Source: a virus. Taken from it: 48,460 bases of DNA. The notes below the pieces were generated by a model that worked only from the letters and a program-made list of their open reading frames with translations, did no database searches and was not told where the DNA came from. Shown here piece by piece: positions 2,097-29,776 of the stretch. The stretch lies in the IMG/VR virus record IMGVR_UViG_3300023196_001102, positions 1 to 48,460 of that record; one strand, 5' to 3'. The position numbers and the translations under genes are program-made. Every line of letters starts with the position of its first letter. Positions within the stretch are counted from its first letter, which is position 1.

Positions 2097-2099
2097 TTG

Positions 2100-2107
2100 T
2101 ATAAATA
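2100..2107 (+). promoter_or_regulatory. T4-type late promoter box
   Basis: An exact TATAAATA lies 27 nt before the ATG of the nitroreductase-like gene at 2135. A strong GGAGG ribosome binding site sits at 2121-2125. TATAAATA is the late-promoter -10 element of T4-like phages and needs no -35. The same arrangement precedes the paralogous gene at 7681. Confidence 0.7.
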
Positions 2108-2134
2108 TATATATCGTATAGGAGGAAAACATCA

Positions 2135-2767
2135 ATGGAATTAACAACCGTAGATATTAAAAAAGCAGTTCTACGCAGTCAACACTGTCAAAGAAACTTT
2201 GATTTAGATCAAAGTATTCCTGAAGCTGATATTGATACACTAGTACATGCTGCAACAAACTGCCCAAGTAAGCAAAATGTTGCTTTTTATAAGTTACACG
2301 TCATTACTGATCGTTCAATTATTGAGCAAGTGCATAATTTAGCAACAGGCACACACACTTATGACAAAGATAATAACCAGATTGAAAGTACAAACAGTCA
2401 AGTATTAGCAAATGTGTTATTTGTATTTGAACCAAATGAAATTGAAGACTTGACAGATAAAAGTCGTGCACGTTGGGAGCAAAAAGATGCTGCTGACCGT
2501 GAAGTATTTAAAAGAGACGTAGCTACAGCAATTGGTATTGCAGGCGGCTATATTAACTTAACAGCAAGTATTCTTGGATATAGCACTGGTTGTTGTCAGT
2601 GTGGTAAAATGGATGCTATCCGTGACGTACTAGGACTTAAAAACCGTCCAGCAATGTTACAAGGTGTGGGGATTAAAGACTCAACACGTAACAGACGTTT
2701 ACATCACGAAACTGGATTTATGTTTCCAACAAACAAAAAAGAAGATATTGCAGTTAATCGCATTTAA
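2135..2767 (+). CDS. Nitroreductase-fold flavoprotein, copy 1
   Basis: This is a 210-residue protein of the nitroreductase superfamily. The N-terminal helix pattern KKAVLRSQHCQRNFD and the CPSKQN motif at residues 43-48 correspond to the FMN-binding RRSxRxF and APSxxN motifs. Ser/Cys-rich residues GCCQCG follow in the second half. Family members are FMN-dependent oxidoreductases. Some of them dehydrogenate heterocycles in peptide natural products. The substrate here is unknown. The gene has its own late promoter, a GGAGG ribosome binding site and a hairpin terminator, so it may be a separate strongly expressed late unit within the radical SAM cluster. A paralogue lies at 7681. Confidence 0.82.
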   Translation: MELTTVDIKKAVLRSQHCQRNFDLDQSIPEADIDTLVHAATNCPSKQNVAFYKLHVITDRSIIEQVHNLATGTHTYDKDNNQIESTNSQVLANVLFVFEPNEIEDLTDKSRARWEQKDAADREVFKRDVATAIGIAGGYINLTASILGYSTGCCQCGKMDAIRDVLGLKNRPAMLQGVGIKDSTRNRRLHHETGFMFPTNKKEDIAVNRI

Positions 2768-2785
2768 CAGCTAAAGAACTAGAAC

Positions 2786-2811
2786 ACAGTCGCCGTTATG
2801 GCGGCTGTTTT
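2786..2811 (+). terminator. Rho-independent terminator after nitroreductase copy 1
   Basis: A 9-bp stem (ACAGTCGCC paired with GGCGGCTGT, with one G-T wobble) and a GTTAT loop are followed by TTTT. It lies 18 nt after the stop codon. It contains the ATG at 2798 that would otherwise be taken as the start of the next gene. Confidence 0.75.
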
Positions 2812-2830
2812 CACGAGTATAAGTAATATT

Positions 2831-3955
2831 ATGAAAACAGCATGCAGCAAAAGCTGGACTGATGTAAACATAGATTTTGCAAATAGATTAATAAGAAACT
2901 GTTGTAGGTCCAAGGCATATCCAATGCCTGATGATTACGATATAGATTTTTTTAATAACAGTCCTCAAATACAGCAAAGAAGATCTAGCACACTGTCTGG
3001 TGAACAACACCCAGATTGTACACACTGTTGGGAAAGTGAAAACGCTGGCATACCCAGTTATCGTTCACAACAAAATAAGTGGCAAGACTTTAGTACAGTA
3101 ACTCGTGATCCACACACAACATATATTGATGTAACACTTGATACTACATGTGACCAGAGCTGTTTATACTGTGCCGCAGATGCTAGCAGTCAAATAGCTC
3201 AAGAAGAAGGTGTGCCTATACGTGATGACGGTACTGAGCATGACTTTGAAACATTTAAACGTTGGGTATCAACACTCAGTGGTAGCATAGTATTTAATTT
3301 TTTAGGTGGTGAACCAACTGCCAGTAAACGTTTTGCTCCAATGGTAGAGTATATAAACACATTACCTGTTGATGCAAAGTTTGAAATCTGTACAAATTGT
3401 AATACAAAAGCACCTATGATGGAACGATTATTAAAAACTATACGTGGCAGTGGCAAACCTTGGAATATTGCTATTAGTAATGAAACATTTGGTACTGATG
3501 CAGAGTTGTCAAGGTATGGACTAGATTGGGAAAGATTTAAAACTAATTTTATTACCTATGCTACTACACCAGAGGTTAGTGGTATTACACTAGCACCTAC
3601 TACTAATGCACTTAGCATAAGAGGACTAGCTGATTATATTGAATGGGTGCATGAAACAATGTTAACTGTTGCACCTGATAAGTCATTTAGTTGGCATGGA
3701 AGTTATATCACCAGACCCAGTGTAATTGATATAAAGAACTTAGATACCGATCATCGAAAACATATAGTAAGAGCACAAGAAGTTTATGCTAGATATCATA
3801 ATCAACATTCGAGATACCATCATGCTCAAAGATTTACGAATTACTTACAAAGTATGTATGATAGAATAGGCACTGGTACCAATCGCACAACTGTTAAAGA
3901 TTTTATACTAGACAAACAAAAAGTAAAAAATAAAGATTTGAGTAAACTATTATGA
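2831..3955 (+). CDS. Radical SAM protein with N-terminal Cys-rich segment
   Basis: This is a 374-residue protein. It has the radical SAM motif CDQSCLYC at residues 107-114, GGEP at 159-162, an N-terminal CC pair at 24-25 and the pair C63/C66. I place the start at 2831 (MKTACSKSW) because the earlier in-frame ATG at 2798 sits inside the terminator stem, and related proteins in the cluster begin directly at the Cys-rich segment. No strong ribosome binding site precedes either start. It is homologous in layout to the proteins at 894 and 3952. It overlaps the next gene by 4 nt. Confidence 0.86.
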   Translation: MKTACSKSWTDVNIDFANRLIRNCCRSKAYPMPDDYDIDFFNNSPQIQQRRSSTLSGEQHPDCTHCWESENAGIPSYRSQQNKWQDFSTVTRDPHTTYIDVTLDTTCDQSCLYCAADASSQIAQEEGVPIRDDGTEHDFETFKRWVSTLSGSIVFNFLGGEPTASKRFAPMVEYINTLPVDAKFEICTNCNTKAPMMERLLKTIRGSGKPWNIAISNETFGTDAELSRYGLDWERFKTNFITYATTPEVSGITLAPTTNALSIRGLADYIEWVHETMLTVAPDKSFSWHGSYITRPSVIDIKNLDTDHRKHIVRAQEVYARYHNQHSRYHHAQRFTNYLQSMYDRIGTGTNRTTVKDFILDKQKVKNKDLSKLL

Positions 3956-5073
3956 CTAATTTTTGTGTACATAGCCAAGTTGGCGTTAGTGTTGTTGATA
4001 GCCGTGGCGCAATACGTCCATGTTGTAAGTATAAAAATCCTGCAATCTTACCTACTATATTTGATATAGATAGTTTAGACGGGCTACATCAGTCACATCC
4101 TTATAATGATATAAAACGTAACCTTAATAGTGGACAATGGCCTACTGGTTGCCAAATGTGTCAATTAGCAGAGCAAGGTGGTGCTGAAAGTCGAAGAGTT
4201 TGGTCAAATAAGTTTTATGGAGAGCACAATTTATTCCAACCTGCTACTATACAGGATTTAGAAATAGCACTAGACTATACTTGTAATATGAGATGCCAAA
4301 TATGCAACCCTGGTGCTAGTAGTAAATGGAGTACTAATACGGAGTTATTAAATGATTTAGATCGTGCTGGAATTGATTATGATAAAAATAATCATTATCG
4401 TAACTATCAGGATCGTATGAAACTAGTATTGTCAAATACCGATTTAAGTCAAGCAAGGCATATAAAAATAGAAGGCGGTGAGCCGTTTTATGCTAAACAT
4501 TTAAGTTGGTTTATAGATAAACTACAACAAGAGGTACAACACCCTAATAAACTATTTTTAAATATTACAACAAACGGCAGTGTATATCCAGACGAACAAG
4601 TTATACGTCAATTGGAATACTTTCCAAATAGTGTTGTATCATTTAGTTTAGATGGTACAGAAAAACTAGCAGAAGTTACACGTTGGGGTGTTAAGTGGGA
4701 AATTATTGACAGAACTATCAGGCGTTTTAGTAAAACTAATATTAATCTTTACGCTAGTTGTACAGTAAGTATACTTAACTTTAATAAATTATGGGCATTA
4801 CAAGATTATCTTAAAGATTATAATATACCAGTTAGTTTTAGTGAATTAACAGATCCAAAACATTTAAGTATATACCAATTACCATTATCAGTTAGAGAAC
4901 AATTTGTAACTGGTAACTCAGAGTTAGATCGTATACTAACAGCAGACATTACAATTGACAATCAGTTAACCACAACTCGTGATTATATTAATATTATGGA
5001 TCGACACCAAAAAACAGATTTTAGTAGTGTAAATAAACAAGCATGGGAGATAATAAATGCTAATATCAGGTAA
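3952..5073 (+). CDS. Radical SAM protein with N-terminal Cys-rich segment
   Basis: This is a 373-residue protein. C5, the CC pair at 24-25 (RPCCKYK) and C67/C70 form the N-terminal segment. The radical SAM motif CNMRCQIC is at 111-118 and a GGEP motif (IEGGEPFY) lies near 165. It is the third of three proteins with this same layout, which suggests duplication followed by specialisation. The start overlaps the previous stop by 4 nt (ATGA) and the end overlaps the SDR-like gene by 17 nt. The substrate is unknown. Confidence 0.87.
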   Translation: MTNFCVHSQVGVSVVDSRGAIRPCCKYKNPAILPTIFDIDSLDGLHQSHPYNDIKRNLNSGQWPTGCQMCQLAEQGGAESRRVWSNKFYGEHNLFQPATIQDLEIALDYTCNMRCQICNPGASSKWSTNTELLNDLDRAGIDYDKNNHYRNYQDRMKLVLSNTDLSQARHIKIEGGEPFYAKHLSWFIDKLQQEVQHPNKLFLNITTNGSVYPDEQVIRQLEYFPNSVVSFSLDGTEKLAEVTRWGVKWEIIDRTIRRFSKTNINLYASCTVSILNFNKLWALQDYLKDYNIPVSFSELTDPKHLSIYQLPLSVREQFVTGNSELDRILTADITIDNQLTTTRDYINIMDRHQKTDFSSVNKQAWEIINANIR

Positions 5074-5614
5074 TCCTGAACAAGGGGTAGCACAATCGTT
5101 ATCCCGGTTATATCCAGATGCCATCTTTATGAGTAGAAGTACTGGACATGACTTGGTAGAAAAATCAGGAAGAACGGCATTTGCTCAAGAAGCACTTAAT
5201 CATGACGTTATTATAGTTAACAGCGCACTATGGCAGTTTCAACAAACTGTGCTACTAGATACAGTGTACAAGAGCCTAAAGGATGCCAAGAAACTAGCAC
5301 ATATAGTAGTTATTGGTAGTACCACGGACCGTGTTAAGAACGGCAAGGCATGGTTATACAATGCTGAAAAGAAAGCACTACGTGATTACAGTAATACACT
5401 TAGTATTGGAGGTGTATGGAGTCGTATGCCCAAAGTAAGTTACATTAGTTTTGGTACACTTAGCAATAATGAACACAAACACCCTGATAGACGATGTATG
5501 GCGATTGATTCAGCCGCAGATTACATTAAATGGATAATAGATCAACCAGCACATATTAATATAAATGAATTAAGTGTTGACCCTGTGCAGGATGCCTATT
5601 GGTATGCCCTTTAG
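5057..5614 (+). CDS. Short SDR-like NAD(P)-binding protein
   Basis: This is a 185-residue protein with alternating beta-alpha character. A GST motif (VVIGSTTDR) is followed by YNAEKKAL, which matches the Ser...YxxxK catalytic signature of short-chain dehydrogenases/reductases. SDRs are normally about 250 residues, so this is a shortened version. The N-terminal ISGNPEQGVAQSL may be the equivalent of the glycine-rich nucleotide loop, but it does not match the classical TGxxxGxG. It is embedded between radical SAM genes, with overlaps at both ends. A redox role in the same pathway is inferred. Confidence 0.6.
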   Translation: MLISGNPEQGVAQSLSRLYPDAIFMSRSTGHDLVEKSGRTAFAQEALNHDVIIVNSALWQFQQTVLLDTVYKSLKDAKKLAHIVVIGSTTDRVKNGKAWLYNAEKKALRDYSNTLSIGGVWSRMPKVSYISFGTLSNNEHKHPDRRCMAIDSAADYIKWIIDQPAHININELSVDPVQDAYWYAL

Positions 5615-6278
5615 TAAAGATATTAGCTATTTACATTTTGGTCTGACAAGTAAATGCACTCTGTCTTGTCCAGAGTGTGTACGTACAATGAGCAATCCTA
5701 CGATTAATACATTATGGCGTGATATTAAAGAGCAACGACAAATTGATTGGCATCAATATCGTGGAGTTATTAAAGATTTATCATACCAATCTATACTATT
5801 TTGTGGTAATTGGGGAGATCCAATATACTATCCTGATCTAATAGAGTTTATCGCTTATATTAAAACTGTTACTGATGTGCCTATCTATATTCATACAAAC
5901 GGAAGTTACAAAGATGCTGACTTTTGGTATCAGTTAGGAACAGTACTACAACCACTGGACCAAATATTGTTTAGTATTGACGGTCTATTAGAAGACGACC
6001 AGTATCGTGTTAATAACGATGCTCGGAGCAGACAGTTGGGAGTTCAGACACTTGTCAGTATGCCACCTGAAACAAGACCATTAGTAGTACAAAAACTTTT
6101 AGTATTCAGTTATAACGAAAACAACATTCTTAAAATTATTGACCAAAGTAGACAACTAGGCTTTGATGTAATTAGAGTAAAATATCCTATTGTTGAAGAA
6201 AATCCACATCTAGAACCATCATATCGTGGCACAGATTTTGAGGTGTTGTTTACAGAGAAAGGTGGACATCGTGAGTAA
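5604..6278 (+). CDS. Radical SAM core protein without auxiliary domain
   Basis: From the chosen ATG the protein has 224 residues. The motif CTLSCPEC is at residues 18-25, and GNWGDP at 68-73 stands in for GGEP. Starts at 5574 or 5592 are also open. I prefer 5604 because it overlaps the upstream gene by only 11 nt and gives a start just before the first core strand. The protein stops straight after the core barrel, and the next ORF supplies a Cys-rich auxiliary domain. Core and auxiliary domains are usually one chain in the SPASM/twitch family. Confidence 0.8.
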   Translation: MPFSKDISYLHFGLTSKCTLSCPECVRTMSNPTINTLWRDIKEQRQIDWHQYRGVIKDLSYQSILFCGNWGDPIYYPDLIEFIAYIKTVTDVPIYIHTNGSYKDADFWYQLGTVLQPLDQILFSIDGLLEDDQYRVNNDARSRQLGVQTLVSMPPETRPLVVQKLLVFSYNENNILKIIDQSRQLGFDVIRVKYPIVEENPHLEPSYRGTDFEVLFTEKGGHRE

Positions 6279-6549
6279 TATTGATCCAAAATGTCAAACG
6301 ACTGACGTTAATTACCATATTGAAATAAACGGAATGTTTTTACCATGCTGTTGGCTAGCCACACATCGTGAAAGTATTGATTATCTACGTGAAAAATTAG
6401 GCGATGATTATGACCTTTTGTTTTTGACAAATAACAATCCTTATAGTATAATGGACTTATGGGAAAAATATATTGAAGACAGTTGGTCAACAACTAGTCC
6501 TGTTCCTATATGTACAATGCAGTGTTCCAGAAAGACATTAAATGACTGA
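6271..6549 (+). CDS. Stand-alone SPASM/twitch-like auxiliary domain
   Basis: This is a 92-residue protein from a GTG start at 6271, which overlaps the previous stop (GTGAGTAA) and has a GGTGG ribosome binding site. It carries C8, the phrase INGMFLPCCW with a Cys pair, and the C-terminal pattern PICTMQC. This resembles the auxiliary iron-sulfur domain of SPASM/twitch radical SAM enzymes (CxxxGxxxPCC). It lies in a different frame from the upstream core. It therefore either encodes a separate subunit that assembles with that core or is joined to it by frameshifting. An ATG at 6226 is open but would give a longer overlap. Confidence 0.65.
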   Translation: MSNIDPKCQTTDVNYHIEINGMFLPCCWLATHRESIDYLREKLGDDYDLLFLTNNNPYSIMDLWEKYIEDSWSTTSPVPICTMQCSRKTLND

Positions 6550-7654
6550 CGATTTAAAATGGAGTGAATATGACTTTACTAAAATACCCTTTGACGACCT
6601 TGTTAGTGTTGGTCAGCGTACTTTGTTGTATCGTGATCTATTTACAGTCAGTTGGCTACTGGGAAGATTCTGTAATTACAAATGTAGTTACTGTTGGCCT
6701 TACGCACGTTCAGATAGAAAAGATCATAGACCAACAGAACTATGCATTAGCACAATTGATGAGATAAAGAGGCAAGCACGTGGCAACAGTTTTAATAGCT
6801 TTCATTTTAGTCTTTCTGGCGGTGAGCCTACTTTTCACCCAGGATACTTGGATATTTTACAGCATTTGGCTGATGATGTTGATAACACTAATTATACCTC
6901 TGTGCATATGACATCAAACTGTAGTCGCAATATGCGATGGTTCGAAGACTATGTAGAACGGGTAAAACCTTTCCATAGAGCTAGTATAACCGCTAGTTTA
7001 CACACAGAACACTTAAATACAGTTGAGAAGATGCAAGACTTTGCAGACAAATTAATCTTCTGCCAGGAGCATGATGTTCAAGTTACGATCAATATGGTTA
7101 TGGTTCCGGACTGGTTTGAGAGGGACTGGGAAAACGCCTTGTTCTTCCACAAGCAAGGAATCAATGTCACACTCAAGCCCCAGAGTGACCCAACGGCATC
7201 AAGAGTCGTGGACGGTTATACAGACGAGATGTTACAGCGATTGTGGAACGGTATGCCGCAAATGGCGTATACTGAGGCAAAACGCAAGTGGGCAGATCGC
7301 CCAAGGCCTAGTTTCGAACTGCCGCCGTATACAATAGGTGATAATGATAAAAGTGTGCCCTGGCACATGCAGATTGAATTTAAAGATTCAACTGGCAAAA
7401 AATGGTATATGGATCAAGCAGAACGTTTTAACGCATTTAATTTTAATAAGTTCAAAGGCTGGAGTTGTAATGCTGGCTATCAAGGTATTATTATACGTGA
7501 ACCAGATGGCAGTGTAAAGCGTAGTTATAGCTGTGCTGATGTACCATTGGGTAATATTGAAACAGGATTTAAACTGTTTGATAAGCCCATGCCTTGTATT
7601 AGCGATAATTGTGTAAGCAGTGCTGACAGTAAAATTCCCAAACGTAAACTATAA
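6542..7654 (+). CDS. Radical SAM protein with C-terminal SPASM-like domain
   Basis: This is a 370-residue protein. It has the radical SAM motif CNYKCSYC at residues 44-51, GGEP at 93-96 and a long core. A C-terminal segment reads GWSCNAGYQG, then PDGSVKRSYSC, then CISDNC, which is the pattern of a SPASM-type auxiliary cluster. Unlike the proteins at 894, 2831 and 3952, its Cys-rich segment is C-terminal. Bases about 7081-7320 are near 50% G+C by my count, clearly above the flanks, suggesting a mosaic gene. The stop codon is inside the late promoter box that drives the next gene. Confidence 0.87.
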   Translation: MTDDLKWSEYDFTKIPFDDLVSVGQRTLLYRDLFTVSWLLGRFCNYKCSYCWPYARSDRKDHRPTELCISTIDEIKRQARGNSFNSFHFSLSGGEPTFHPGYLDILQHLADDVDNTNYTSVHMTSNCSRNMRWFEDYVERVKPFHRASITASLHTEHLNTVEKMQDFADKLIFCQEHDVQVTINMVMVPDWFERDWENALFFHKQGINVTLKPQSDPTASRVVDGYTDEMLQRLWNGMPQMAYTEAKRKWADRPRPSFELPPYTIGDNDKSVPWHMQIEFKDSTGKKWYMDQAERFNAFNFNKFKGWSCNAGYQGIIIREPDGSVKRSYSCADVPLGNIETGFKLFDKPMPCISDNCVSSADSKIPKRKL

Positions 7655-7657
7655 ATA
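7650..7657 (+). promoter_or_regulatory. T4-type late promoter box
   Basis: An exact TATAAATA overlaps the stop codon of the preceding radical SAM gene. It lies 23 nt before the ATG at 7681. AGGAG at 7668-7672 is the ribosome binding site. The layout is the same as at 2100. Confidence 0.7.
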
Positions 7658-7680
7658 TAGTATATATAGGAGAATTTAGT

Positions 7681-8298
7681 ATGGAATTAACTGAATCAAG
7701 CATTAAAAAAGCTGTAATTAGATCGCAACATTGCCAACGTAATTGGAATTTAGAAAAAGAAATCCCACAAGCGGATTTACAAACAATGGTACATGCTATT
7801 ACAAATTGTCCTAGTAAGCAAAACGCCGCCTTCTATAATGTATATACTATTACTGACAGAGACACAATTGAGCGTATCCATGAGAAAACTGAAGGGTTTT
7901 ATCACAGAGATGAAGAGAAAATGATTAGCAACAGTCAAACCCTTGCTAATGTATTATTTGTGTTCACTAACAATACAGAAAAAAGTAATAGATTAAATAA
8001 AAAACGTGACAGTTATGGCGACAATGAAGCTAGTGTTGGCAGAGATTTACATATGGCAACTGGTATTGCTGCAGGATATTTAAATTTAACTTCAAGTTTA
8101 ATGGGGTACAACACAGGTTGTTGTGCATGTTTTGAAGGCGAAGAGATACAAGAAATATTGAACACCGAAGACGAGATTGTGTTGCTTATGGGTGTTGGAC
8201 ATAAAGGCGACATTCCTAGAAGAATACACCACGCAGATAATAGTTTAACATTCCCTGCGATTCCAAAAGAAAATATAGCGGTAACTTATATAACATAA
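7681..8298 (+). CDS. Nitroreductase-fold flavoprotein, copy 2
   Basis: This 205-residue protein is a paralogue of the one at 2135. It shares KKAVIRSQHCQRNW at the N-terminus, CPSKQN in the FMN-binding region, TGCCAC in the second half and RRIHH near the C-terminus. All motifs expected for FMN binding are kept in both copies, so both are probably active. It too has its own late promoter and a strong AGGAG site. The conserved unusual CPSKQN, where most nitroreductases have APSxxN, places the pair in one subfamily. The substrate is unknown. Confidence 0.82.
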   Translation: MELTESSIKKAVIRSQHCQRNWNLEKEIPQADLQTMVHAITNCPSKQNAAFYNVYTITDRDTIERIHEKTEGFYHRDEEKMISNSQTLANVLFVFTNNTEKSNRLNKKRDSYGDNEASVGRDLHMATGIAAGYLNLTSSLMGYNTGCCACFEGEEIQEILNTEDEIVLLMGVGHKGDIPRRIHHADNSLTFPAIPKENIAVTYIT

Positions 8299-8299
8299 T

Positions 8300-8980
8300 A
8301 TGATAACAACTGAACAACAGTACTTGGAAATGCACACTGCACCCTTGATTCCACTTGACATGAAAGCAAATATGACATTGTTTTCAGAGTGTATGCGTGA
8401 GTACCAACATGCGTTTAGAGCATGGGGTGTTAAACATCTAGAACATCAACGTTATGGATTACCATTAGTAAATGCCAATGGGAAGTTATATAACAATCCA
8501 GAACCAGTTTGTTATCCGCTAGACCAGTGGAATGCGCAGCTAGCAGATGCTGACCGTGTTAGAGATCATAGCTTTCAAGTACCAACCGAGATACTTTCCC
8601 ATATAGCATTTGATTTTTTAGAACCACTTAAAGATTGCATATTGCGCAGTTGTATACTAAAATGGATGGATAATAGTATGTTTTATCCTCATACTGATAC
8701 TAAATTACAAGGACGTATACTAAGACTATGGGGTACAGATAGACCAGACATGGTTAAGTTACGTTTTGATCGTAATGGTGCTAGAAGCAATCCCAGAGAC
8801 GTAGACAATACAGAGTTTGATTTAGCCGCACCAGACTGTGAAGTTGAAGCTGGGCGTATGTATTTAATTGACACAAACATTATACACGATGCACACAGTT
8901 ATGCTAATAATACATATCAATTCTTTCTTAGCTTTGACAGAGATAAAAGTTACAAAACTATACAACAATTAAAATTATGA
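8300..8980 (+). CDS. Aspartyl/asparaginyl beta-hydroxylase-like oxygenase
   Basis: This is a 226-residue protein. The second half shows a double-stranded beta-helix oxygenase pattern. HTD (in YPHTDTK) supplies the HxD of the iron site, and a later His in IIHDAHSY could supply the third ligand. RLWG and GRMYLIDT resemble the Asp/Asn beta-hydroxylase (Fe(II)/2-oxoglutarate) family. The first half is helical and not recognised. It starts 1 nt after the previous stop and overlaps the next oxygenase-like gene by 4 nt. It probably hydroxylates a product or intermediate of the cluster (inference). Confidence 0.62.
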   Translation: MITTEQQYLEMHTAPLIPLDMKANMTLFSECMREYQHAFRAWGVKHLEHQRYGLPLVNANGKLYNNPEPVCYPLDQWNAQLADADRVRDHSFQVPTEILSHIAFDFLEPLKDCILRSCILKWMDNSMFYPHTDTKLQGRILRLWGTDRPDMVKLRFDRNGARSNPRDVDNTEFDLAAPDCEVEAGRMYLIDTNIIHDAHSYANNTYQFFLSFDRDKSYKTIQQLKL

Positions 8981-9561
8981 AATATTTTACACCACTAGAT
9001 TTGCCGCAATATGATTTATTCAGTTGTATGAACCAGTTATTACAACAAGAAAAAATTGACTGGGGTAGACACGGACAAATTTGTATTAATACTACACCTG
9101 ATCAGCCTGACAACCATCATCATGGCGATGCTAGTTTAAAATATGATTGGAATAATACCACGGACAAAGTAGACAAGGACGGTAATATAACAAATTTTAC
9201 TGTACCATTACGAAATAAAAGTTTAAGAGAAAAACACTTTACTCAGTTATGTACAGTATTTGAAAACACTATATTTGCTGATGTATACGAACAGTTAACT
9301 AGTCAGTATACTGTTGGTAGAGTTAGATTAATGAAGTCACCGCCTAAAACATGTTTAACTTGGCATCAAGATAGTACTAATAGAATACACTATCCACTAG
9401 TTACTGATCCAGGATGTCAAATGGTAATTGAAGATGAGGTTTTACACATGCCAGAAAATACTTGGTGGTTAACACAAACTGAACAGCATAAACACACAGC
9501 ATTTAATGCTAGTACAGACAATAGAATTCACTTAGTGGCGGTGGTTAGAAATGCTAACTAA
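8977..9561 (+). CDS. 2OG-Fe(II) oxygenase-like protein
   Basis: This is a 194-residue protein. RLMKSPPKTCLTWHQD supplies an HxD iron motif, followed by HYPLVTDPG. A late HTAFN supplies the distal His and RIHLV a candidate 2-oxoglutarate-binding Arg. This is the layout of a small Fe(II)/2-oxoglutarate beta-helix oxygenase. An HHHG stretch is present in the N-terminal half. It sits between another oxygenase-like gene (4-nt overlap) and a GNAT-like gene (11-nt overlap). Confidence 0.6.
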   Translation: MKYFTPLDLPQYDLFSCMNQLLQQEKIDWGRHGQICINTTPDQPDNHHHGDASLKYDWNNTTDKVDKDGNITNFTVPLRNKSLREKHFTQLCTVFENTIFADVYEQLTSQYTVGRVRLMKSPPKTCLTWHQDSTNRIHYPLVTDPGCQMVIEDEVLHMPENTWWLTQTEQHKHTAFNASTDNRIHLVAVVRNAN

Positions 9562-10057
9562 ACGTATTGACAATCAAAATATTGTACAAGTAGGCGAGTT
9601 TGTGCGTAAATGTGAAAAACTTGGATACAACAATAACTCCAGCCTACAAAATATGAAATGGGATTGGTGTTTGGAATCTGGTGCTTGGTTTGCCACATAT
9701 ATAGACGACAATATCATAAGTTTAAGTGGTATACATCCGTTTGAGGATGGATATAGAGCTTTATTTAGAGGTGCACAATTAAGATCACGTAACGTTGGAC
9801 TAAACAGATACCACATGCAAAGTTACTGTTTTAGTACACAGTTGCCATTACAATTAGAATATGCTCATGATAAACCTGTGTATATTACTACAAATACGGA
9901 TAACGATGCCAGCGGTAAAATGGGAAGTGTTAATCGAACATTTTATCATTTAGCCAAATATGGTATTGTAGATTTTGTAAGAGCTGATGAAGTATTTTAT
10001 ACACAACAAAATATATGGAAATTAAATAATGAAAAATACAAAAATATTAGACTTTAA
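9551..10057 (+). CDS. GNAT-like acyltransferase (tentative)
   Basis: This is a 168-residue protein. The order of segments is GNAT-like: a central strand pair GAWFATYIDDNIISLSGIH, then VNRTFYHLAKYGIVDF near the C-terminus as the usual last helix and strand. The acetyl-CoA loop (Q/RxxGxG/A) is not clear, so activity is uncertain. It overlaps the upstream oxygenase by 11 nt and the downstream membrane protein by 29 nt. A role transferring an acyl group within the pathway is only inferred from context. Confidence 0.45.
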   Translation: MLTKRIDNQNIVQVGEFVRKCEKLGYNNNSSLQNMKWDWCLESGAWFATYIDDNIISLSGIHPFEDGYRALFRGAQLRSRNVGLNRYHMQSYCFSTQLPLQLEYAHDKPVYITTNTDNDASGKMGSVNRTFYHLAKYGIVDFVRADEVFYTQQNIWKLNNEKYKNIRL

Positions 10058-10250
10058 ACACCTCAAAAAAGCTGGTGCTGGTTATTTTAAACACTTGACT
10101 TTTGCTACATATTATAATATACTAGCATTAGGTGTGTTAGTAACAGGAATAATTCACAGTTTTATACCGTGGCTATTTCCGTTTACTCCTTACTATCTAG
10201 CCAAGAGGATTGTAGATGGCACTGAACGAAACTTTAAAAAAGATAATTAA
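10029..10250 (+). CDS. Small DUF6356-like membrane protein
   Basis: This is a 73-residue protein. FKHLKKAGAGYFKHL is followed by a single long hydrophobic stretch and IIHSFIP, matching the H-L...H-L...IHxxxP pattern I associate with DUF6356. A protein with the same pattern lies in the endolysin region at 45658. One membrane segment is predicted, with a positively charged C-terminal tail. The function is unknown. It may tether cluster enzymes or substrates to the membrane (inference). It overlaps both neighbours. Confidence 0.6.
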   Translation: MKNTKILDFKHLKKAGAGYFKHLTFATYYNILALGVLVTGIIHSFIPWLFPFTPYYLAKRIVDGTERNFKKDN

Positions 10251-10902
10251 CACTGGTACAGCATTGCCAACCAGTGGTACTACTGGTGCGCCTAGACGTA
10301 TATTTCAACCCCCACATAAACTACAAGCCGCTAATAGTGTAGCTAGACAAGTACAAGATATTACTGTTAACAGTCGTATACTAACAGTGTGTACACTAAC
10401 ACATGCTGGCGGACTGCTTGCGCAAACATTACCTGCTGTAGAAGTTGGTGCCCTAGTTGACATACAAAAGTTTAATCCTTATAGTTGGGTTAGACAGATT
10501 ACAGACTACACACATAGTCATTTGACACCAGATATGGCTCGTGCTGTAATAAAAACTCGAGGATTTAATAATATAAACCTGAGTGGCATAACTGTTATGT
10601 GTGGTAGTGATAGGGTACACAGTCGTATTATTCAATCATTTATTGATCGTGGCGCCACTTTTATTGCTAATTGGGGCATGACAGAAGTAGGCCCAGTAGC
10701 AATTAATAGTACGTTTGCTCCAGGAGATATAGTCACAGTAACTGAAAGTATAATGGGTAACCAAACACATTGTGATACAACGATTGTAGACGGTGAATTG
10801 TTGGTTAAAGGTGACATTTGTGTATATGACGATTGGTATCACACTGGCGACCTAGTAACATATAATAATGGAGTTTACTATTATCTCGGACGTATACAAT
10901 AA
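10216..10902 (+). CDS. Minimal adenylate-forming enzyme (AMP-binding domain)
   Basis: This is a 228-residue protein. It carries adenylation core motifs in order: TSGTTGAPRR at residues 19-28 (phosphate loop), WGMTEVG (adenine/Mg region), YHTGDLV (ribose-binding Asp) and YYLGRIQ at the very end. ANL-superfamily enzymes usually have 500 or more residues. This one lacks about 150 N-terminal residues and the entire C-terminal domain with the catalytic Lys. It probably still binds ATP and could activate a carboxylate to an acyl-AMP, possibly handing it to another protein. It overlaps its neighbours by 35 nt at each end. Confidence 0.72.
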   Translation: MALNETLKKIINTGTALPTSGTTGAPRRIFQPPHKLQAANSVARQVQDITVNSRILTVCTLTHAGGLLAQTLPAVEVGALVDIQKFNPYSWVRQITDYTHSHLTPDMARAVIKTRGFNNINLSGITVMCGSDRVHSRIIQSFIDRGATFIANWGMTEVGPVAINSTFAPGDIVTVTESIMGNQTHCDTTIVDGELLVKGDICVYDDWYHTGDLVTYNNGVYYYLGRIQ

Positions 10903-11605
10903 TCCTAACTTTGTTTTTGTAAGTTTTGAACCTGGTAGTAGAGGACACACTATCGGGCGTGTCTTGTGCAGTTTACCAGAAGTACATTGGTATAGTAATT
11001 TAGACAACGGCATTAATCCTTGGAACATAGCACATAAAAGTGACTGGATAATTCAACGTCAAGTAGCCCTTAAACATTTTGATAGGACTATGCCTAATGG
11101 AGAAGTATTGCCACCAACTTGGGATTATGTAAAGGATTTTGTTGACTGTGACACATATTATCATGACTTATTTCCAGCACAGTTTGAAAAAGCACAAGGT
11201 CAAAAATATCTAAATACACATCGGTTATTATACTGTACGCATAGTTTACCACAAGAAATACTGACACAGTTTCCTAATAGTCGTGTAATTAATATTGTAG
11301 CAGGTGTTGATGACATAGTAAATAGATATATGCACACAACGGCGAAATTTCCTGCCTATCTTAAACTTGAGTGGATGAATGGTAGCGAAACTGAATATGG
11401 TAAAATGCTATATCAATTAAGTAAACGTTGGGGATTGTTTTTTACAGTACAAGATGTCTGGGAGCATTTACACAGTGGAAGTTTTTATCAGCATATAGAA
11501 ACACAAATAAAAAATAATATGGCATTGAGGAATCAGACTAATAACAGCCGTGTACTCAATGTTAGCTATAGAGAATACCGAAAGATGAAAGAGTTTATCG
11601 TATGA
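10868..11605 (+). CDS. Sulfotransferase-like P-loop protein
   Basis: This is a 245-residue protein. Near the N-terminus, FVFVSFEPGSRGHTIGR resembles the 5'-phosphosulfate-binding loop of PAPS-dependent sulfotransferases, and NSRVINIVAGVDD in the middle resembles the second (3'-phosphate) binding strand. It is more divergent than the two sulfotransferase-like proteins at 12015 and 14409, so the assignment is tentative. The start shown overlaps the upstream gene by 35 nt, and no better downstream ATG keeps the P-loop. Confidence 0.5.
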   Translation: MEFTIISDVYNNPNFVFVSFEPGSRGHTIGRVLCSLPEVHWYSNLDNGINPWNIAHKSDWIIQRQVALKHFDRTMPNGEVLPPTWDYVKDFVDCDTYYHDLFPAQFEKAQGQKYLNTHRLLYCTHSLPQEILTQFPNSRVINIVAGVDDIVNRYMHTTAKFPAYLKLEWMNGSETEYGKMLYQLSKRWGLFFTVQDVWEHLHSGSFYQHIETQIKNNMALRNQTNNSRVLNVSYREYRKMKEFIV

Positions 11606-12018
11606 AATATAAATTTTTAGACTTGCCTGCTGTACCAGAGCATTTAATATTACCAGTTGAACAAGTATTAGAACTTGAAAATATATTTGGTGGGCGTAGC
11701 CCTAATTACACTATACACGAATGTCAAGCGGAATTGGCGGACTATCTTCAAGAACAGTTTCCTGAATATACAAAGTTTCGTTATCAAACACTAGTACATG
11801 GTGTACCTGTACACAAAGACAGAGGACGCACAACAGCTTTAAACTATATTATTGATCCAGGTGGCACCAATGTACACACTATTTGGTATGCTGAAGATCA
11901 AGTAACACCCACATGTGATGTTGTACTAGGTAAAAATCAGTGGCATATATTAGAAGTTGATTCATATCACACTGTTATGAACATAGAAAAGAGGCGCTTT
12001 GCGATTACAATAGCATGA
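11602..12018 (+). CDS. Small 2OG-Fe(II) oxygenase-like protein
   Basis: This is a 138-residue protein. VPVHKDRG gives an HxD motif, LNYIID follows, WHILEVDSYHTV provides a distal His and RRFAITI a terminal Arg. This is the spacing expected of a compact Fe(II)/2-oxoglutarate beta-helix. At 138 residues it is near the lower limit for the fold. It starts within the last codons of the sulfotransferase-like gene (ATGA overlap) and overlaps the next gene by 4 nt. Confidence 0.55.
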   Translation: MKYKFLDLPAVPEHLILPVEQVLELENIFGGRSPNYTIHECQAELADYLQEQFPEYTKFRYQTLVHGVPVHKDRGRTTALNYIIDPGGTNVHTIWYAEDQVTPTCDVVLGKNQWHILEVDSYHTVMNIEKRRFAITIA

Positions 12019-12722
12019 TAGATACAAATAAAATAATATTCTTTACTGGAGCACCAGGAAGTAAATGGAGTGGCGCTAGTGTATTACTAGCCAATACTCC
12101 ACTAATAGATATAAACATTAGTGATCGTACACCAGAGCGTGAGTATGATCATGGTCCACAGTTTAATGGCGTTAAACACATGGGCGCATATTTTGGTCCA
12201 GGATTTGAGTTTGGTGAATGGTTTCATGAACTGTACACTGGAAAATATACTCGTGAACAAGTAATTGCTGAAATAGAATCCGCTTATCCAGAACATGATG
12301 GATATATTATGGTAAAATGTCATCAGTTTGTTTACAGTTTAGATTGGATTGCTGAAACGTTTCCTGAAAGTAAAATTATGATTGTTATGCGACATCCAGA
12401 CGCATGTTGGGATGGTTGGCATGGAGTAGGTGGTATTAAAATTCCATACCCTGATTATACTAAGTTTTATAAAACAACTGAACAAGCAAAAGAGTTAATT
12501 AACCATGAATGTATGTTAGCACGTAAATGGATTTACGAACGTGATTTAGCAGTACATACCAGTACACCTAGACATTGGCGTGATATTTGGCAACTAGACG
12601 ATGCTGATGAAAATCGTCAGTATAATCATAGCCTAATAGGATATCATAATAAAAATGATAATCCAACTGAAAGATTACGTTATGATGTACAAATTAGTTA
12701 CTACAATTTTGAGAGAAAATAA
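12015..12722 (+). CDS. Sulfotransferase-like P-loop protein
   Basis: This is a 235-residue protein. TGAPGSKWSGA near residue 11 matches the sulfotransferase PAPS loop, and IMIVMRHPDACWDGW matches the conserved RxP 3'-phosphate strand. GVGG...YPDYTKF is shared with the protein at 14409, so the two are paralogues. The likely reaction is sulfonate transfer from PAPS to an unknown acceptor. An APS-kinase-like gene that could feed this reaction lies at 16442 on the other strand. Confidence 0.68.
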   Translation: MIDTNKIIFFTGAPGSKWSGASVLLANTPLIDINISDRTPEREYDHGPQFNGVKHMGAYFGPGFEFGEWFHELYTGKYTREQVIAEIESAYPEHDGYIMVKCHQFVYSLDWIAETFPESKIMIVMRHPDACWDGWHGVGGIKIPYPDYTKFYKTTEQAKELINHECMLARKWIYERDLAVHTSTPRHWRDIWQLDDADENRQYNHSLIGYHNKNDNPTERLRYDVQISYYNFERK

Positions 12723-13817
12723 ATGGATTGTGTTGTAATAGTTAAATCAGGAGATGCGTGGTGGGATGATATTGCTCTAAACTATAGTCAGTTAAGTATT
12801 GATCATAGTGTAAGCAGTAGATATAGCCAAAGCAAATATGATTACTGTTTAACAGATGAATTTAATTCAGCTGATTATATTAAGTATGATCGTGTTTTAA
12901 TTATTCAAGCAGGTACTATATTGATATGGGGAAATTATGAAAAGAACATTATTCCCAGACTAAAAAATTATGAGAACATAAACATTTGTAATGGTGCTAC
13001 AGTCTGGCAACCAATGGGAGACGGTGATACTAGTCTTGATATGAATATTCAATCAATTGATACTACTACTGTACAAACATTTATAAACAGTCATAGTGCT
13101 GCGGTTACTAATCTAATAGATGATAGTAATATAAGTTACTTAATGCATAACGAACTTCCAAAATATAGTTCAGTGACTGGCGCAGTGGATTGGGCAATTA
13201 CTTTAAGTAGTGGATTCTTTATCAATGGAATATTAAATCATCACGGTATACACAGTGACACTGTAATACATCATATGGACATAAGCAAGATAAGTTTAGA
13301 TGTTAGAAAATATACTATCCAAGTATGGGATGGTACAGATATAAAAAGTTGGATTAAACACTTACAACAAAAATATCCTAGTATGCAGTTGTTTAATAGA
13401 CACAAGTTTACTGACAGAGATAATGATTATATGGTTATCTGGGAAAATCTACAAGCTGAATTTTCTGATTGGCAGTCACATTGGAAACAATATCAAAGTT
13501 TAGAGCATCACTACCATCGAGTAAACATCAGTAACAAGGCAGATATAGATAAATTATTATCAACTATTACACCTGGTGCGGGTGTAATATGGTGGAACGG
13601 CGCACTGAAACGCATGCCAGGAAACTTACTAAAAGACAGTAATGCCAGTCATCAGTCAGCTATCGAATTTGTACGAACAATAGCAGAGCATAATCCAAAT
13701 ACAATATGTTATGGAAGCGATCATTGTGATAAACAGTTCAATGGCGAACTAGCAAGTACAGTAGCAAATTTAGTAGCAGAGAATAATAGTAGAGAATTGT
13801 TGTGGCAAAAAAAATAA
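12723..13817 (+). CDS. Unknown 364-residue protein of the biosynthetic cluster
   Basis: I do not recognise this protein. The N-terminal part (YDRVLIIQAGTIL) has a weak glycosyltransferase-like feel, but no DxD metal motif is clear. A central hydrophobic segment TLSSGFFINGILNHHG is followed by many His residues. A C-terminal part reads VIWWNGALKRMPGN and then CYGSDHC. No signal peptide is seen. It starts directly after the previous stop (TAA ATG) and overlaps the PP-loop gene by 16 nt, so it belongs to the same transcript. Confidence 0.75.
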   Translation: MDCVVIVKSGDAWWDDIALNYSQLSIDHSVSSRYSQSKYDYCLTDEFNSADYIKYDRVLIIQAGTILIWGNYEKNIIPRLKNYENINICNGATVWQPMGDGDTSLDMNIQSIDTTTVQTFINSHSAAVTNLIDDSNISYLMHNELPKYSSVTGAVDWAITLSSGFFINGILNHHGIHSDTVIHHMDISKISLDVRKYTIQVWDGTDIKSWIKHLQQKYPSMQLFNRHKFTDRDNDYMVIWENLQAEFSDWQSHWKQYQSLEHHYHRVNISNKADIDKLLSTITPGAGVIWWNGALKRMPGNLLKDSNASHQSAIEFVRTIAEHNPNTICYGSDHCDKQFNGELASTVANLVAENNSRELLWQKK

Positions 13818-14416
13818 AATTATTAATATTATTTTGGTTATTAACCAAAATAAAATTACCCACAGGACCTATAGGCATATATCTAAGTGGCGGTAGTGAC
13901 AGTGCAATATTATTTTGGTTAATAGCGTCACAAAGACAGCATGAAGTTGTATTACTTACAGTTGCTAGCGATGATAAAAAATTTAATATAGAGCCTGCTC
14001 TAGCAGTAGTCGAGTGGGTTAATAGCAACACATCAGTAACAATACTAGAGCATTGTGTAACAATAGCGCCAAACTTAGAATCACGCAAAGATTATAGAGA
14101 TCAAGCTACTAATAGTTTAACTAAGCAATGGAATTTAAGTTGCTGGGTAAGTGGAAAAACACTTAATCCAGATGTAAAATTAAAGCATCATGAACAAAGA
14201 AAGACGGACAGAGACACAGTAATGCCTAGAGTAATACACGATCATTTCTATAGTCCGTTTTATAATATTAATAAAAGCCACTTAGCATTGTTGTATAAAA
14301 AATATGAATTAAGTAAACTACATAGTCTAACAGTAAGTTGCGAAACTAGTTACCCACCGTGTGGAGATTGTTGGTGGTGTGCAGAAAGAGAATGGGCATA
14401 CGGCAATTATGTATAA
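13802..14416 (+). CDS. PP-loop ATP pyrophosphatase with QueC-like zinc tail
   Basis: This is a 204-residue protein from a GTG start. SGGSDSA at about residues 29-35 is the PP-loop of N-type ATP pyrophosphatases. The C-terminus (SCETSYPPCGDCWWCAER) keeps the four-Cys zinc site and the following Arg of QueC, the 7-cyano-7-deazaguanine synthase. The DYGQ/RH segment that usually follows the PP-loop in QueC is absent, and the first 30 residues are hydrophobic and basic. It could be a diverged QueC completing the preQ0 pathway with FolE, QueD-like and QueE on the other strand. It could instead be an amidating or thiolating enzyme of this cluster. Confidence 0.65.
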   Translation: MAKKIKLLILFWLLTKIKLPTGPIGIYLSGGSDSAILFWLIASQRQHEVVLLTVASDDKKFNIEPALAVVEWVNSNTSVTILEHCVTIAPNLESRKDYRDQATNSLTKQWNLSCWVSGKTLNPDVKLKHHEQRKTDRDTVMPRVIHDHFYSPFYNINKSHLALLYKKYELSKLHSLTVSCETSYPPCGDCWWCAEREWAYGNYV

Positions 14417-15083
14417 AGGTAAAGATTTAATTATAGCAACTGGCACACCAGGCAGTCGTTGGAGCGGAGCAATTCGATGTATACAAAGTCATACAGCTAT
14501 TAATATCTCAGATGAAGTAAACACTGATAGTTATACCAACGGTGCAAAAGGCTGGCACAGAGGTGCGTATTGGGGGCCAGGACACAATTATGGTACAAAT
14601 TTTGATCGTCTAGATCAATTAAATCGTGACGATGTAATAGCACAATTTCAGGAACCTTTTGATGATTGGGATAGTGGCGTTAAAATAGTTAAAAGTCATT
14701 GGTTTAGTTATCATATACCTCAACTGCGTGAATGGTTTCCTGAAGCAAAGTTCTTAGCATTTTGGATGCCGGATGACTTTTGTTTTGATTGGTGGCATCA
14801 AGTAGGAGGTTGGAATATAACTTATCCTCACTATACTTGGTATGAGAATGACAAGCGTATGAGAGAACAAATTGCTATAGAGAATAAATTTATCCAACAG
14901 CATTTTGATTTACAACAAAATAGTCTAGTAGAACTATTACATAAACTAGGACTGGATAATCAGTTACACAACGAAAAAGAACTTTGTAAACGAGATACAA
15001 AGTTCCAAGATCTTGCAAAAAATAAATCTATTGATCGAGTTTTAAACGACACTGTTCAACGAATTTATACTGGTGTTCTTTAG
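14409..15083 (+). CDS. Sulfotransferase-like P-loop protein
   Basis: From the ATG at 14409, which overlaps the upstream stop as ATGTATAA, the protein has 224 residues. TGTPGSRWSGA near residue 11 is the PAPS loop. WHQVGGWNITYPHYTWY is shared in pattern with the paralogue at 12015. In the second motif, the RHP of the paralogue is replaced by WMPDD, so the 3'-phosphate-binding Arg may be missing. An earlier ATG at 14361 is open but would overlap 56 nt. This is the last gene of the plus-strand cluster. Its TAG shares bases with the stop of the convergent gene ending at 15080. Confidence 0.65.
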   Translation: MYKGKDLIIATGTPGSRWSGAIRCIQSHTAINISDEVNTDSYTNGAKGWHRGAYWGPGHNYGTNFDRLDQLNRDDVIAQFQEPFDDWDSGVKIVKSHWFSYHIPQLREWFPEAKFLAFWMPDDFCFDWWHQVGGWNITYPHYTWYENDKRMREQIAIENKFIQQHFDLQQNSLVELLHKLGLDNQLHNEKELCKRDTKFQDLAKNKSIDRVLNDTVQRIYTGVL

Positions 15084-15340
15084 TCTTCAGTTTCACTAAT
15101 TACTACACCATCAAATTTATCGTTAGCTGGACGCTGAGAGCGTTCAAGGTCTCTTACTGCCTTCATTGGCCAAACTACAGTTCGTGTAATTGATGTACCG
15201 CCTGCATCTAATACAGCATTCCAACTAGTATAACCTTCGCTAAGTTGTCCACAACTTCCGTGTGCATCTAACCAAGCCTCTACGGTGTCAAATGTGTCAC
15301 TTGATGTAGTTGTAAGTCTACTTACATGTGTATAAGCCAT
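15080..15340 (-). CDS. Hypothetical protein, 86 aa, under a late promoter
   Basis: The protein is 86 residues, unrecognised, soluble and rich in Thr and Ser (SRLTTTSSDTFDTVEAW). It has an AGGAG ribosome binding site close before the ATG and a late promoter box at 15363-15370. It is therefore likely expressed late and abundantly, perhaps as a small virion protein (inference). It is convergent with the plus-strand cluster, and the two stop codons overlap. Confidence 0.7.
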   Translation of the reverse strand: MAYTHVSRLTTTSSDTFDTVEAWLDAHGSCGQLSEGYTSWNAVLDAGGTSITRTVVWPMKAVRDLERSQRPANDKFDGVVISETED

Positions 15341-15362
15341 GTTATTCTCCTGTTAGTACATT

Positions 15363-15370
15363 TATTTATA
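15363..15370 (-). promoter_or_regulatory. T4-type late promoter box
   Basis: An exact TATAAATA on the minus strand overlaps the last codons of thyA. It lies 22 nt before the ATG of the 86-residue gene that starts at 15340. Confidence 0.65.
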
Positions 15371-16262
15371 CTGCCATTGGTGCTTTAATAGTGTCCATTG
15401 GATTATATCCTACAAGTTTATAATCACTTGGTTTAGTAGCTAGTAATTCTTCTAGTGTAGTAAACTCTGGCATCTCTAGTATAGGACCACTTACAGGTTG
15501 ACGCTCTAGTTGTTGCTTTACTTGTTCCATATGGTTATTGTATATATGACAATCTCCACCAGTCCATATAAATGTACCTACTTCTAACCCGCATATCTGT
15601 GCTAACATATGTGTTAGCAGACTATAACTAGCAATGTTAAACGGCACACCCAAGAACATATCAGCACTACGCTGATACAATTGACAACTTAGTTTGCCGT
15701 TCATTACTCTAAATTGTGCTAGTGTATGACATGGTGGCAATGTCATTTTGTCAAGTTGGTTAGGGTTCCAAGCACTTAGTATAATACGTCTTGAATCTGG
15801 ATTAGTTTTTATCTCATTAATAATCCAGCTAATTTGATCTGTACCACGTAAGTGTGGTGTACCAACCCAGTACTCTCCGTCAAAGTTGCGCCATTGATGT
15901 CCATATACTGGACCAAGCCGTTTGTAGGTTTGATCATCATCTTTTACGTAACCCAAGTCTTTTGCTTGTTTGTTGGCGTTGGCAGTCCAGATGGTATTCT
16001 TATCCGACAGTTGTTCTCGATCTTTCTCAAATGTGATCTCTGCTAATCTACGTTCATCTGTATTGCCTTCCAAGAACCATAACAGCTCTCCTACTACGCT
16101 ACGCCACGCTAGTTTTTTTGTAGTGACAGCTGGAAAATTACTGTAGGATAATGGAAAACGCATTTGGTATCCAAAGATAGTACGAGTGCCAACTCCAGTT
16201 CGGTCATTAACATCTTCTCCGTCATCTAAAATACATTGTAGTGCTTCTAAGTATTGACGCAT
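15366..16262 (-). CDS. thyA: Thymidylate synthase
   Basis: This is a 298-residue ThyA-type enzyme that makes dTMP from dUMP using methylenetetrahydrofolate. DRTGVGT near the N-terminus, the catalytic Cys in LPPCHTLAQF, YQRSADMFLG and NIASY (dUMP phosphate and base binding) are all present. The length fits a full enzyme. DHFR, which regenerates the folate, lies three genes upstream in the same transcript. This forms a nucleotide-precursor module typical of large phages. The start overlaps the stop of the 58-residue gene by 1 nt (TAATG). Confidence 0.97.
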   Translation of the reverse strand: MRQYLEALQCILDDGEDVNDRTGVGTRTIFGYQMRFPLSYSNFPAVTTKKLAWRSVVGELLWFLEGNTDERRLAEITFEKDREQLSDKNTIWTANANKQAKDLGYVKDDDQTYKRLGPVYGHQWRNFDGEYWVGTPHLRGTDQISWIINEIKTNPDSRRIILSAWNPNQLDKMTLPPCHTLAQFRVMNGKLSCQLYQRSADMFLGVPFNIASYSLLTHMLAQICGLEVGTFIWTGGDCHIYNNHMEQVKQQLERQPVSGPILEMPEFTTLEELLATKPSDYKLVGYNPMDTIKAPMAV

Positions 16263-16438
16263 TAGTCTTCGATCCTTTGCCAGTGTAACCCACCATCTTG
16301 TGGAAGTTTGCCTCTATATTCAACGCCTGTTTCTTCATCTATCAGACGCCATTTAGTTGGACATTTAGTAACTACTTTAAGTTCTATTGCTATGTCTAAA
16401 GCAGGTACTATAGTACCATCTTGTAGTGTTCTATTCAC
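16262..16438 (-). CDS. Small conserved-type ORF, 58 aa
   Basis: This GTG-started ORF of 58 residues fills the gap between thyA and the APS-kinase-like gene. Its stop overlaps the thyA start (TAATG). It reads MNRTLQDGTIVPALDIAIEL at the start and WRLIDEETGVEYRGKLP later, like a small beta-rich domain. No function is recognised. The tight packing and lack of any other use of this stretch support it as a real gene. Confidence 0.6.
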   Translation of the reverse strand: MNRTLQDGTIVPALDIAIELKVVTKCPTKWRLIDEETGVEYRGKLPQDGGLHWQRIED

Positions 16439-16441
16439 TCT

Positions 16442-16873
16442 TTATTCTTTCTTATTATTAATCCCCATCCAACGCTGTACTACTGGCATTAGTTGATTGT
16501 GAGCATTGTCGAACCATTTCTCTACATGGTAGTCTATAAGCTCTGGCGTTTCAAACAAATCGTTTGTGTCTTCAAAACGGCAGCGAGAAATAGTATCCAT
16601 CCACACAGTATAATCTGGATTAAACTCTAATCGTGTAAGATGAGTTGGACAAACAAAGTCAGCAACAGCAATCTTACCTGCTTTAACAACACCATCTGCT
16701 AAGTATTTCATTCTAGATGCTTGTCTGTTTCGACCTTCAAGACTAAAGTCCCAGTCGTTATATTCTGTTCTAATAGCATCAGCGTTTATATGTACTCCGC
16801 CAATTAGATCTGCAAAAGGTTTTGCTAATGTACTTTTACCACTACCTGGTAATCCAAATATTAATATCTTCAA
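16442..16873 (-). CDS. Adenylylsulfate-kinase-like P-loop kinase
   Basis: This is a 143-residue protein. GLPGSGKSTLA is the Walker A motif. HINADAIR and then VADFVCPT follow the layout of APS kinase (DGDxxR and the FxxP strand). APS kinase phosphorylates adenylylsulfate to PAPS, the sulfonate donor. It is shorter than bacterial CysC (about 200 residues) but close to the short phage versions I recall. It sits between DHFR and thyA, so a nucleotide-kinase role is also possible. Three sulfotransferase-like genes on the opposite strand make PAPS supply attractive. Confidence 0.7.
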   Translation of the reverse strand: MKILIFGLPGSGKSTLAKPFADLIGGVHINADAIRTEYNDWDFSLEGRNRQASRMKYLADGVVKAGKIAVADFVCPTHLTRLEFNPDYTVWMDTISRCRFEDTNDLFETPELIDYHVEKWFDNAHNQLMPVVQRWMGINNKKE

Positions 16874-29690: not shown

Positions 29691-29776
29691 TACAGTTGTT
29701 TACGTATCTTCTCATAATTGATTGGTGCTTGCATTGCTTTACGCAATTGTTCGTTCTCTTTAAGTCCCCCAGGCAT
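29690..29776 (-). CDS. Possible mini-ORF between queE and methyltransferase
   Basis: This 28-codon frame (MPGGLKENEQLRKAMQAPIN and on) starts inside the end of queE and stops by TAATG on the methyltransferase start. Its main support is the coupling geometry. It may only serve to carry ribosomes from queE to the next gene. Confidence 0.35.
   Translation of the reverse strand: MPGGLKENEQLRKAMQAPINYEKIRKQL

Follow-up and report, generated by a model that had tools for sequence, protein, structure and literature searches.

The 48,460-base viral record IMGVR_UViG_3300023196_001102, hereafter the window, contains phage replication genes, including a DNA polymerase (phrog_262), and, on its plus strand, a run of genes from 9551 to 15083 that overlap or abut. 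The conserved unit in this operon consists of a half-length AMP-binding (ANL) enzyme, three sulfotransferase-like proteins named here by their first coordinate (10868, 12015 and 14409), and one gene each of GNAT-like and QueC-like type. A first-pass annotation of the window had linked the three sulfotransferase-like genes to an opposite-strand gene, 16442, resembling adenosine 5'-phosphosulfate (APS) kinase, and had proposed a phage sulfation route in which the kinase would supply 3'-phosphoadenosine 5'-phosphosulfate (PAPS). The four open reading frames (ORFs) on which this proposal stood are all present where it had placed them: 10868-11605 (plus strand, 245 residues), 12015-12722 (plus strand, 235 residues), 14409-15083 (plus strand, 224 residues; a GTG at 14361 would lengthen the frame but is the less likely start) and 16442-16873 (minus strand, 143 residues, TTG start). 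The conservation of the sulfotransferase-like family is far beyond chance.

Related viral loci were searched in IMG/VR with a ten-sequence alignment, and about 85,000 prokaryote species genomes and 50,697 phage records were also searched. At least 434 IMG/VR loci are related to 12015 and 14409; only 3 loci of this family were found in the prokaryote genomes, and in the phage records the family occurs only in a single-cell marine virus, AG-345-D19, on two of its contigs (28-35% identity), with no isolate phage among those records giving a match. Both genes recur in two near-relatives of the window at 91-96% identity.

The conserved operon

The half-length AMP-binding enzyme, the 10868-type gene and the 12015-type gene, to which a 14409-type gene is added in part of the loci, were shown to form a tightly conserved group that is largely independent of the APS-kinase-like gene. 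The set is carried by uncultured marine phages, with two or three sulfotransferase-like proteins accompanying the truncated AMP-binding enzyme. Neighbour enrichment was measured in 58 sulfotransferase loci against 76 loci of marine phages that had been collected by way of the APS-kinase-like gene; the counts for the module are indicative, since near-identical contigs are among those compared and the records are mostly fragmentary. The half-length enzyme lies near the sulfotransferases in 30 of 58 loci against 0 of 76, and the cluster of 10868-type and GNAT-like genes gives the same figures (30/58 versus 0/76). On whole contigs, the half-length enzyme accompanies 12015-type genes in 14 of 16 cases, is found in none of 4 contigs with other family members only, and is missing from all 14 APS-kinase-bearing comparison contigs (14/16 versus 0/14, p=8e-7). 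The 10868 type is present in 13 of 20 sulfotransferase records versus 0 of 8. Furthermore, half-length enzyme and 10868-type genes are co-oriented in 31 of 35 loci and lie no more than 150 bases apart in 23 of the 35; in the window, the start of 10868 falls within the AMP-binding gene ahead of it.

The half-length enzyme itself (10216..10902, plus strand) matches PF00501 with E=5e-14 over profile positions 170-374 of 384, and it matches acyl-CoA synthetases in the PDB. It shares with the ANL acyl-CoA synthetases the adenylate-former motifs A3 (SGTTGxP), A5 (GMTE) and A7 (TGD); unlike them, it begins at A3 and ends at the A8 hinge, and thus has neither the N-terminal third nor the C-terminal domain. 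This truncation is a property of the family: 31 homologues were collected, every one of 223-248 residues, 25 of them were aligned, and all stop at about A8, before the C-terminal domain with the catalytic lysine (A10). Neither the half-length enzyme nor the 10868 type occurs in any of the 50,697 annotated phage records.

The GNAT-like protein (p9551; 9551..10057, plus strand) is a conserved partner that adjoins the module in many loci, with weak Acetyltransf_1 matches in 5 of 21 family members; in two phages (L116 and L119), the alignment reveals that it is fused to the 10868-type protein. The QueC-like PP-loop ATPase (13802..14416, plus strand; phrog_1550) has a Cys-rich C-terminus and exceeds the cut-off of PF06508 (E=1.5e-6); QueC-like genes are only modestly enriched near the sulfotransferases (12/58 versus 3/76).

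Phage sulfotransferases are already known: they have been described repeatedly as auxiliary metabolic genes, for example in OM43 phages and in Synechococcus phage S-SRM01 (PMC10580990), where their function is called still unclear, and in glacier-ice viruses (PMC8290583). Those genes likewise lie on phage genomes, but they are single genes, whereas here they are part of a module. In the papers searched for this gene combination, neither the module nor its half-length AMP-binding partner was found described. The module provides a testable context for phage sulfotransferases, with fixed partners, two paralogues that differ in a single cofactor-binding arginine, and an adenylation domain of minimal size.

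Fold and active-site residues of the three proteins

In 83 distinct sequences of the 12015/14409 family, the pattern TGxPG(S)xWS...D37...HxGxYxGPG...H103...W135...Y148 is invariant. H103, which from its motif position we take to be the equivalent of the SULT catalytic histidine, is found in 83 of 83, and the alignment has K or R at position 101 in most of them; 12015 and 14409 both carry a K-x-H motif. The AlphaFold2 model of 12015 (pLDDT, a predicted local accuracy, 95.2; pTM, a predicted global accuracy, 0.93) has a sulfotransferase fold as judged by VIA-align: the closest solved structures are tyrosylprotein sulfotransferases, with Z from 10.4 to 9.5 over a kinase background of about 7, the best superposing 174 residues at Z 10.4 with a root-mean-square deviation (rmsd) of 3.7 Å. 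With TPST1/2 (PDB 5wrj, 3ap1-3), 12015 shares the overall fold over about 175-180 residues (rmsd 3.7 Å) and a strand followed by arginine at the 3'-phosphate site; it differs from them in being only 13-15% identical, in having no serine after the arginine, in its P-loop TGAPGSxWS, in its length of 235 residues and in being borne by a phage.

At the sequence level, the family matches Sulfotransfer_3 and Sulfotransfer_4 independently. Of 75 family members, 20 match Sulfotransfer_3 (PF13469) at E<0.01, the best of them at E 1.2e-4; in the window it is matched by 12015 (E=2.5e-4, 21.8 bits) and 10868 (E=0.0026, 18.5 bits), both below the cut-off of 27 bits, and 14409 has no match to it. The best BFVD match, at 30% identity and E 5e-17, is named 'Sulfotransferase family', and the profiles of the sulfotransferase family retrieved nothing significant when run against PDB sequences. 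The 12015/14409 proteins are thus best described as divergent sulfotransferase-fold proteins, a name backed by the modelled fold and the catalytic motif and not by Pfam membership.

The two window members differ at the site expected to bind the 3'-phosphate, defined here as an arginine followed, eight residues on, by a serine. The A-type protein 12015 (12015..12722, plus strand) has K101, H103 and R126, but G134 stands where the serine is expected; the B-type protein 14409 (14409..15083, plus strand) keeps the equivalent of H103 and has Met and Trp at the arginine and serine places. The first-pass annotation had correctly noticed that 14409 is without the arginine of an 'RHP' motif, and the alignment places the Met exactly there. 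R126 is present in 63 of 83 family sequences. In a maximum-likelihood tree, the arginine is found in all 36 rows of an A clade that includes 12015 and is absent from 17 of 21 sampled rows of a B clade that includes 14409; in many phages, A and B types are co-resident in the same genome. As judged from the tree, the A/B split is old and the arginine loss in 14409 ancient; being common to the B clade, it does not reflect recent decay in this window.

The remaining protein, 10868 (10868..11605, plus strand; C type), belongs to a separate family, of which 29 proteins were aligned. H125 is invariant in it, and its conserved arginine sits eight residues past the usual arginine position of the 3'-phosphate site. 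An hhalign comparison with the 12015 family gave a probability of 90.7 and E 1.3e-6. The AlphaFold2 model of 10868 (pLDDT 93.4) matches sulfotransferases in Foldseek with probabilities up to 1.00 and weak E-values, and in VIA sulfotransferases (Z 8.6) tie with adenylate/guanylate kinases (8.7). The profile comparison makes 10868 a remote relative of the 12015 family; its model fits sulfotransferases and nucleotide kinases about equally well. Of the three sulfotransferase-like genes announced in one operon, two are clear, and 'divergent third' is a fair description of 10868, which is at most a putative sulfotransferase.

The APS-kinase-like gene

The gene at 16442..16873 (minus strand) lies outside the module, in a dihydrofolate reductase/thymidylate synthase neighbourhood, and encodes an APS-kinase-like P-loop kinase. 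It passes the Pfam APS_kinase cut-off (29.1 versus 21.1 bits), over positions 5-90 of 152 only, corresponding to the first half, and it shares with APS kinase (CysC) the P-loop half at the N-terminus and several positions of the substrate site: R35, F43 and R48, invariant in its family, align with the APS-binding residues of APS kinase known from the literature. Unlike CysC, it falls far below the apsK equivalog cut-off (TIGR00455; 23.8 versus 138.7 bits), and it and its family are without the C-terminal lid region, which in APS kinase has the motif KARxGEIKxFTGI.

The APS-kinase-like gene occurs in hundreds of marine phages (527 or more viral loci), and it is not linked to the sulfotransferases in either direction. 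No sulfotransferase gene of the 12015/14409 family was found in the flanks of 76 other APS-kinase-like loci; 10 of 18 large contigs with the APS-kinase-like gene have no member of that family, and 4 of 11 sulfotransferase contigs are without the APS-kinase-like gene. Where both are present in contigs of 306 kb and 342 kb, they are more than 150 kb apart. In the window, the minus-strand genes run convergently toward the plus-strand operon and meet it at 15080, so 16442 cannot share the operon transcript. The co-occurrence check that the first-pass annotation had suggested thus went against its sulfation route, because the APS-kinase-like gene is widespread in phages without the sulfotransferases, the situation that it had itself named as contrary to the proposal.

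Instead, 16442 is a member of another gene pair, one with no relation to the module. The APS-kinase-like gene is, in 71 of 80 loci, directly followed by a nucleotidylyltransferase with an HxGH motif, and in one locus the two are fused (pairs at L138:6315-7187, the fusion locus, L035:10001-10829 and L048:9977-10835); this layout is reminiscent of PAPS synthetase, CoA synthase or NadR. Neither the window nor its 151-kb relative carries the partner; in the window, between thyA and the kinase gene (16262-16442), an unrelated frame of about 58 codons with no obvious start stands where relatives carry the nucleotidylyltransferase. The identification of this partner as ATP sulfurylase was ruled out by score (best 15.7 versus 24.3 bits). 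ATP sulfurylase was detected in none of 14 sulfotransferase-bearing records, in a search in which the controls were detected and the records may be fragments. An 'APS kinase' annotation beside marine phage sulfotransferases is no evidence for sulfation.

Possible roles of the operon and its neighbourhood

Our preferred reading, held tentatively and with slightly less than even confidence, is that the operon from about 9551 to 15083 encodes a phage-specific tailoring pathway in which the A-type proteins sulfonate the pathway product with PAPS from the host. It is based on the resemblance of 12015 to the tyrosylprotein sulfotransferase fold, on the histidine kept in all 83 sequences, on the association of the half-length enzyme and of the 10868 type with these genes, and on a chromosomal relative of 12015 in Tahibacter aquaticus (L171:5197-12618). 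The neighbours of this relative, named by eye from their translations, are a methyltransferase of the same kind as that found near the phage sulfotransferases and sulfotransferase-like, sulfatase-like and MATE-like exporter genes, and the locus looks like a possible natural-product or biosynthetic cluster. According to this reading, A-type enzymes would move the sulfuryl group from host-made PAPS onto the product, with His103 as the base and K101 as the catalytic lysine; the half-length enzyme and the GNAT-like protein would activate or acylate the acceptor; the B and C types may act on a related substrate, use an altered cofactor or serve as partner subunits; and 16442 would not serve the phage as a source of PAPS. 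A small molecule is a probable product, as is a decoration of the surface or virion. Several observations weigh against the proposal: the Foldseek E-values of the 12015 model against the PDB are only about 0.02; no window protein attains the Sulfotransfer_3 cut-off; no family member shows the serine that normally accompanies the 3'-phosphate arginine, G, W or T standing in its place, so PAPS binding is predicted only; cofactor, acceptor and product are all inferred; and the counts are inflated by near-identical contigs and come mostly from fragments.

That the proteins are kinase-like or other P-loop enzymes with only a generic resemblance to sulfotransferases would agree with those Foldseek values and with the kinase tie of 10868; we consider it unlikely, since the Z scores of 12015 put tyrosylprotein sulfotransferases about 3 units ahead, the family matches two sulfotransferase Pfam families, and TGAPGSxWS is without the lysine-Thr/Ser signature of a Walker A motif. 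A little more weight, still well on the side of doubt, is given to a re-used fold, in which A, B and C proteins would bind an acyl-adenylate made by the half-length enzyme and transfer the acyl group with no role for PAPS. The half-length enzyme is near-obligately paired with A-type genes and also paired with C-type genes, no PAPS genes are present, and the arginine that PAPS, and not an adenylate, would need is lost in B and displaced in C; yet R126 is kept in all 36 A-clade rows, we know of no precedent, and the half-length enzyme may not adenylate at all because it is without the domain bearing the usual adenylation lysine. The narrower idea of a new chemistry in a phage-specific pathway, with duplicated sulfotransferase-fold proteins acting beside a half-length adenylate-former and at least the B branch having swapped PAPS for another adenylate, is also improbable in our estimate; if true, adenylate use by a sulfotransferase fold would be a more novel outcome than PAPS sulfation.

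A role of the operon in 7-deazaguanine-type modification of nucleic acids, to which the QueC-like gene would provide the link, appears less probable again. QueC-like 13802 lies inside the operon, and the window also encodes GTP cyclohydrolase I (35475-36161, minus strand) and a QueE-like protein (29760-30689, minus strand); these two, however, are on the other strand and 14-20 kb off, the enrichment of QueC-like genes is modest, and no role in such a modification is known for the other module genes. The protein at 37988, read by eye as DpdA/TGT-like, had no match in the PDB. Least probable by far is the phage-encoded route, with 16442 turning APS into PAPS for the three sulfotransferases: the Pfam APS_kinase match and the three invariant residues, aligned with the APS-binding ones, speak for it, while the apsK score, the missing lid region, the lack of ATP sulfurylase in the 14 records, the absence of the usual partner from the window and its 151-kb relative, the convergent strands and the lack of linkage in either direction speak against it.

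Other genes accompany the operon. A small ORF of 73 residues between the GNAT-like and half-length AMP-binding genes (10029..10250, plus strand) belongs to a family found in 18 of 58 sulfotransferase loci versus 0 of 76 in the background, and a small conserved operon protein (11602..12018, plus strand), with no Pfam match, to one found in 6 of 58 versus 1 of 76. The conserved 364-residue protein p12723 (12723..13817, plus strand) has 15 homologues with many invariant residues; it gave no family or structure match, with nothing significant in the PDB sequence search, and its identification as a methyltransferase was ruled out (hhalign probability 0.2%). A scan for promoters and terminators gave signals not clearly above chance, and PADLOC detected no defence system in the operon; all it returned was a QueC model for 13802 and, for 6542, a generic match to radical SAM (viperin).

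Beyond the window, the sulfotransferase loci are also enriched in genes for a methyltransferase (38/58 versus 1/76), an oxygenase-like protein (28/58 versus 0/76) and the TctC and TctA transporter proteins (27 and 25 of 58 versus 1/76 each). These tricarboxylate-type transporter, oxygenase-like and methyltransferase genes cluster with the sulfotransferases in L035, L117, L128, L140 and other loci; in the near-relative L002 (~13400-17360) they are inserted between the counterpart of the gene at 15080 and thyA, a place that is empty in the window. Upstream, on the same strand of the window (2..9561), there are six radical SAM enzymes, two nitroreductases and an Asp/Asn-hydroxylase-like protein, and radical SAM genes also adjoin the module in L117, L118, L127 and L129-L131. 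The radical SAM enzyme at 6542-7654, which matches prokaryotic viperin models weakly, is 78-83% identical to copies (e.g., L117:17501-18613) in phages with sulfotransferases of only about 36-43% identity.

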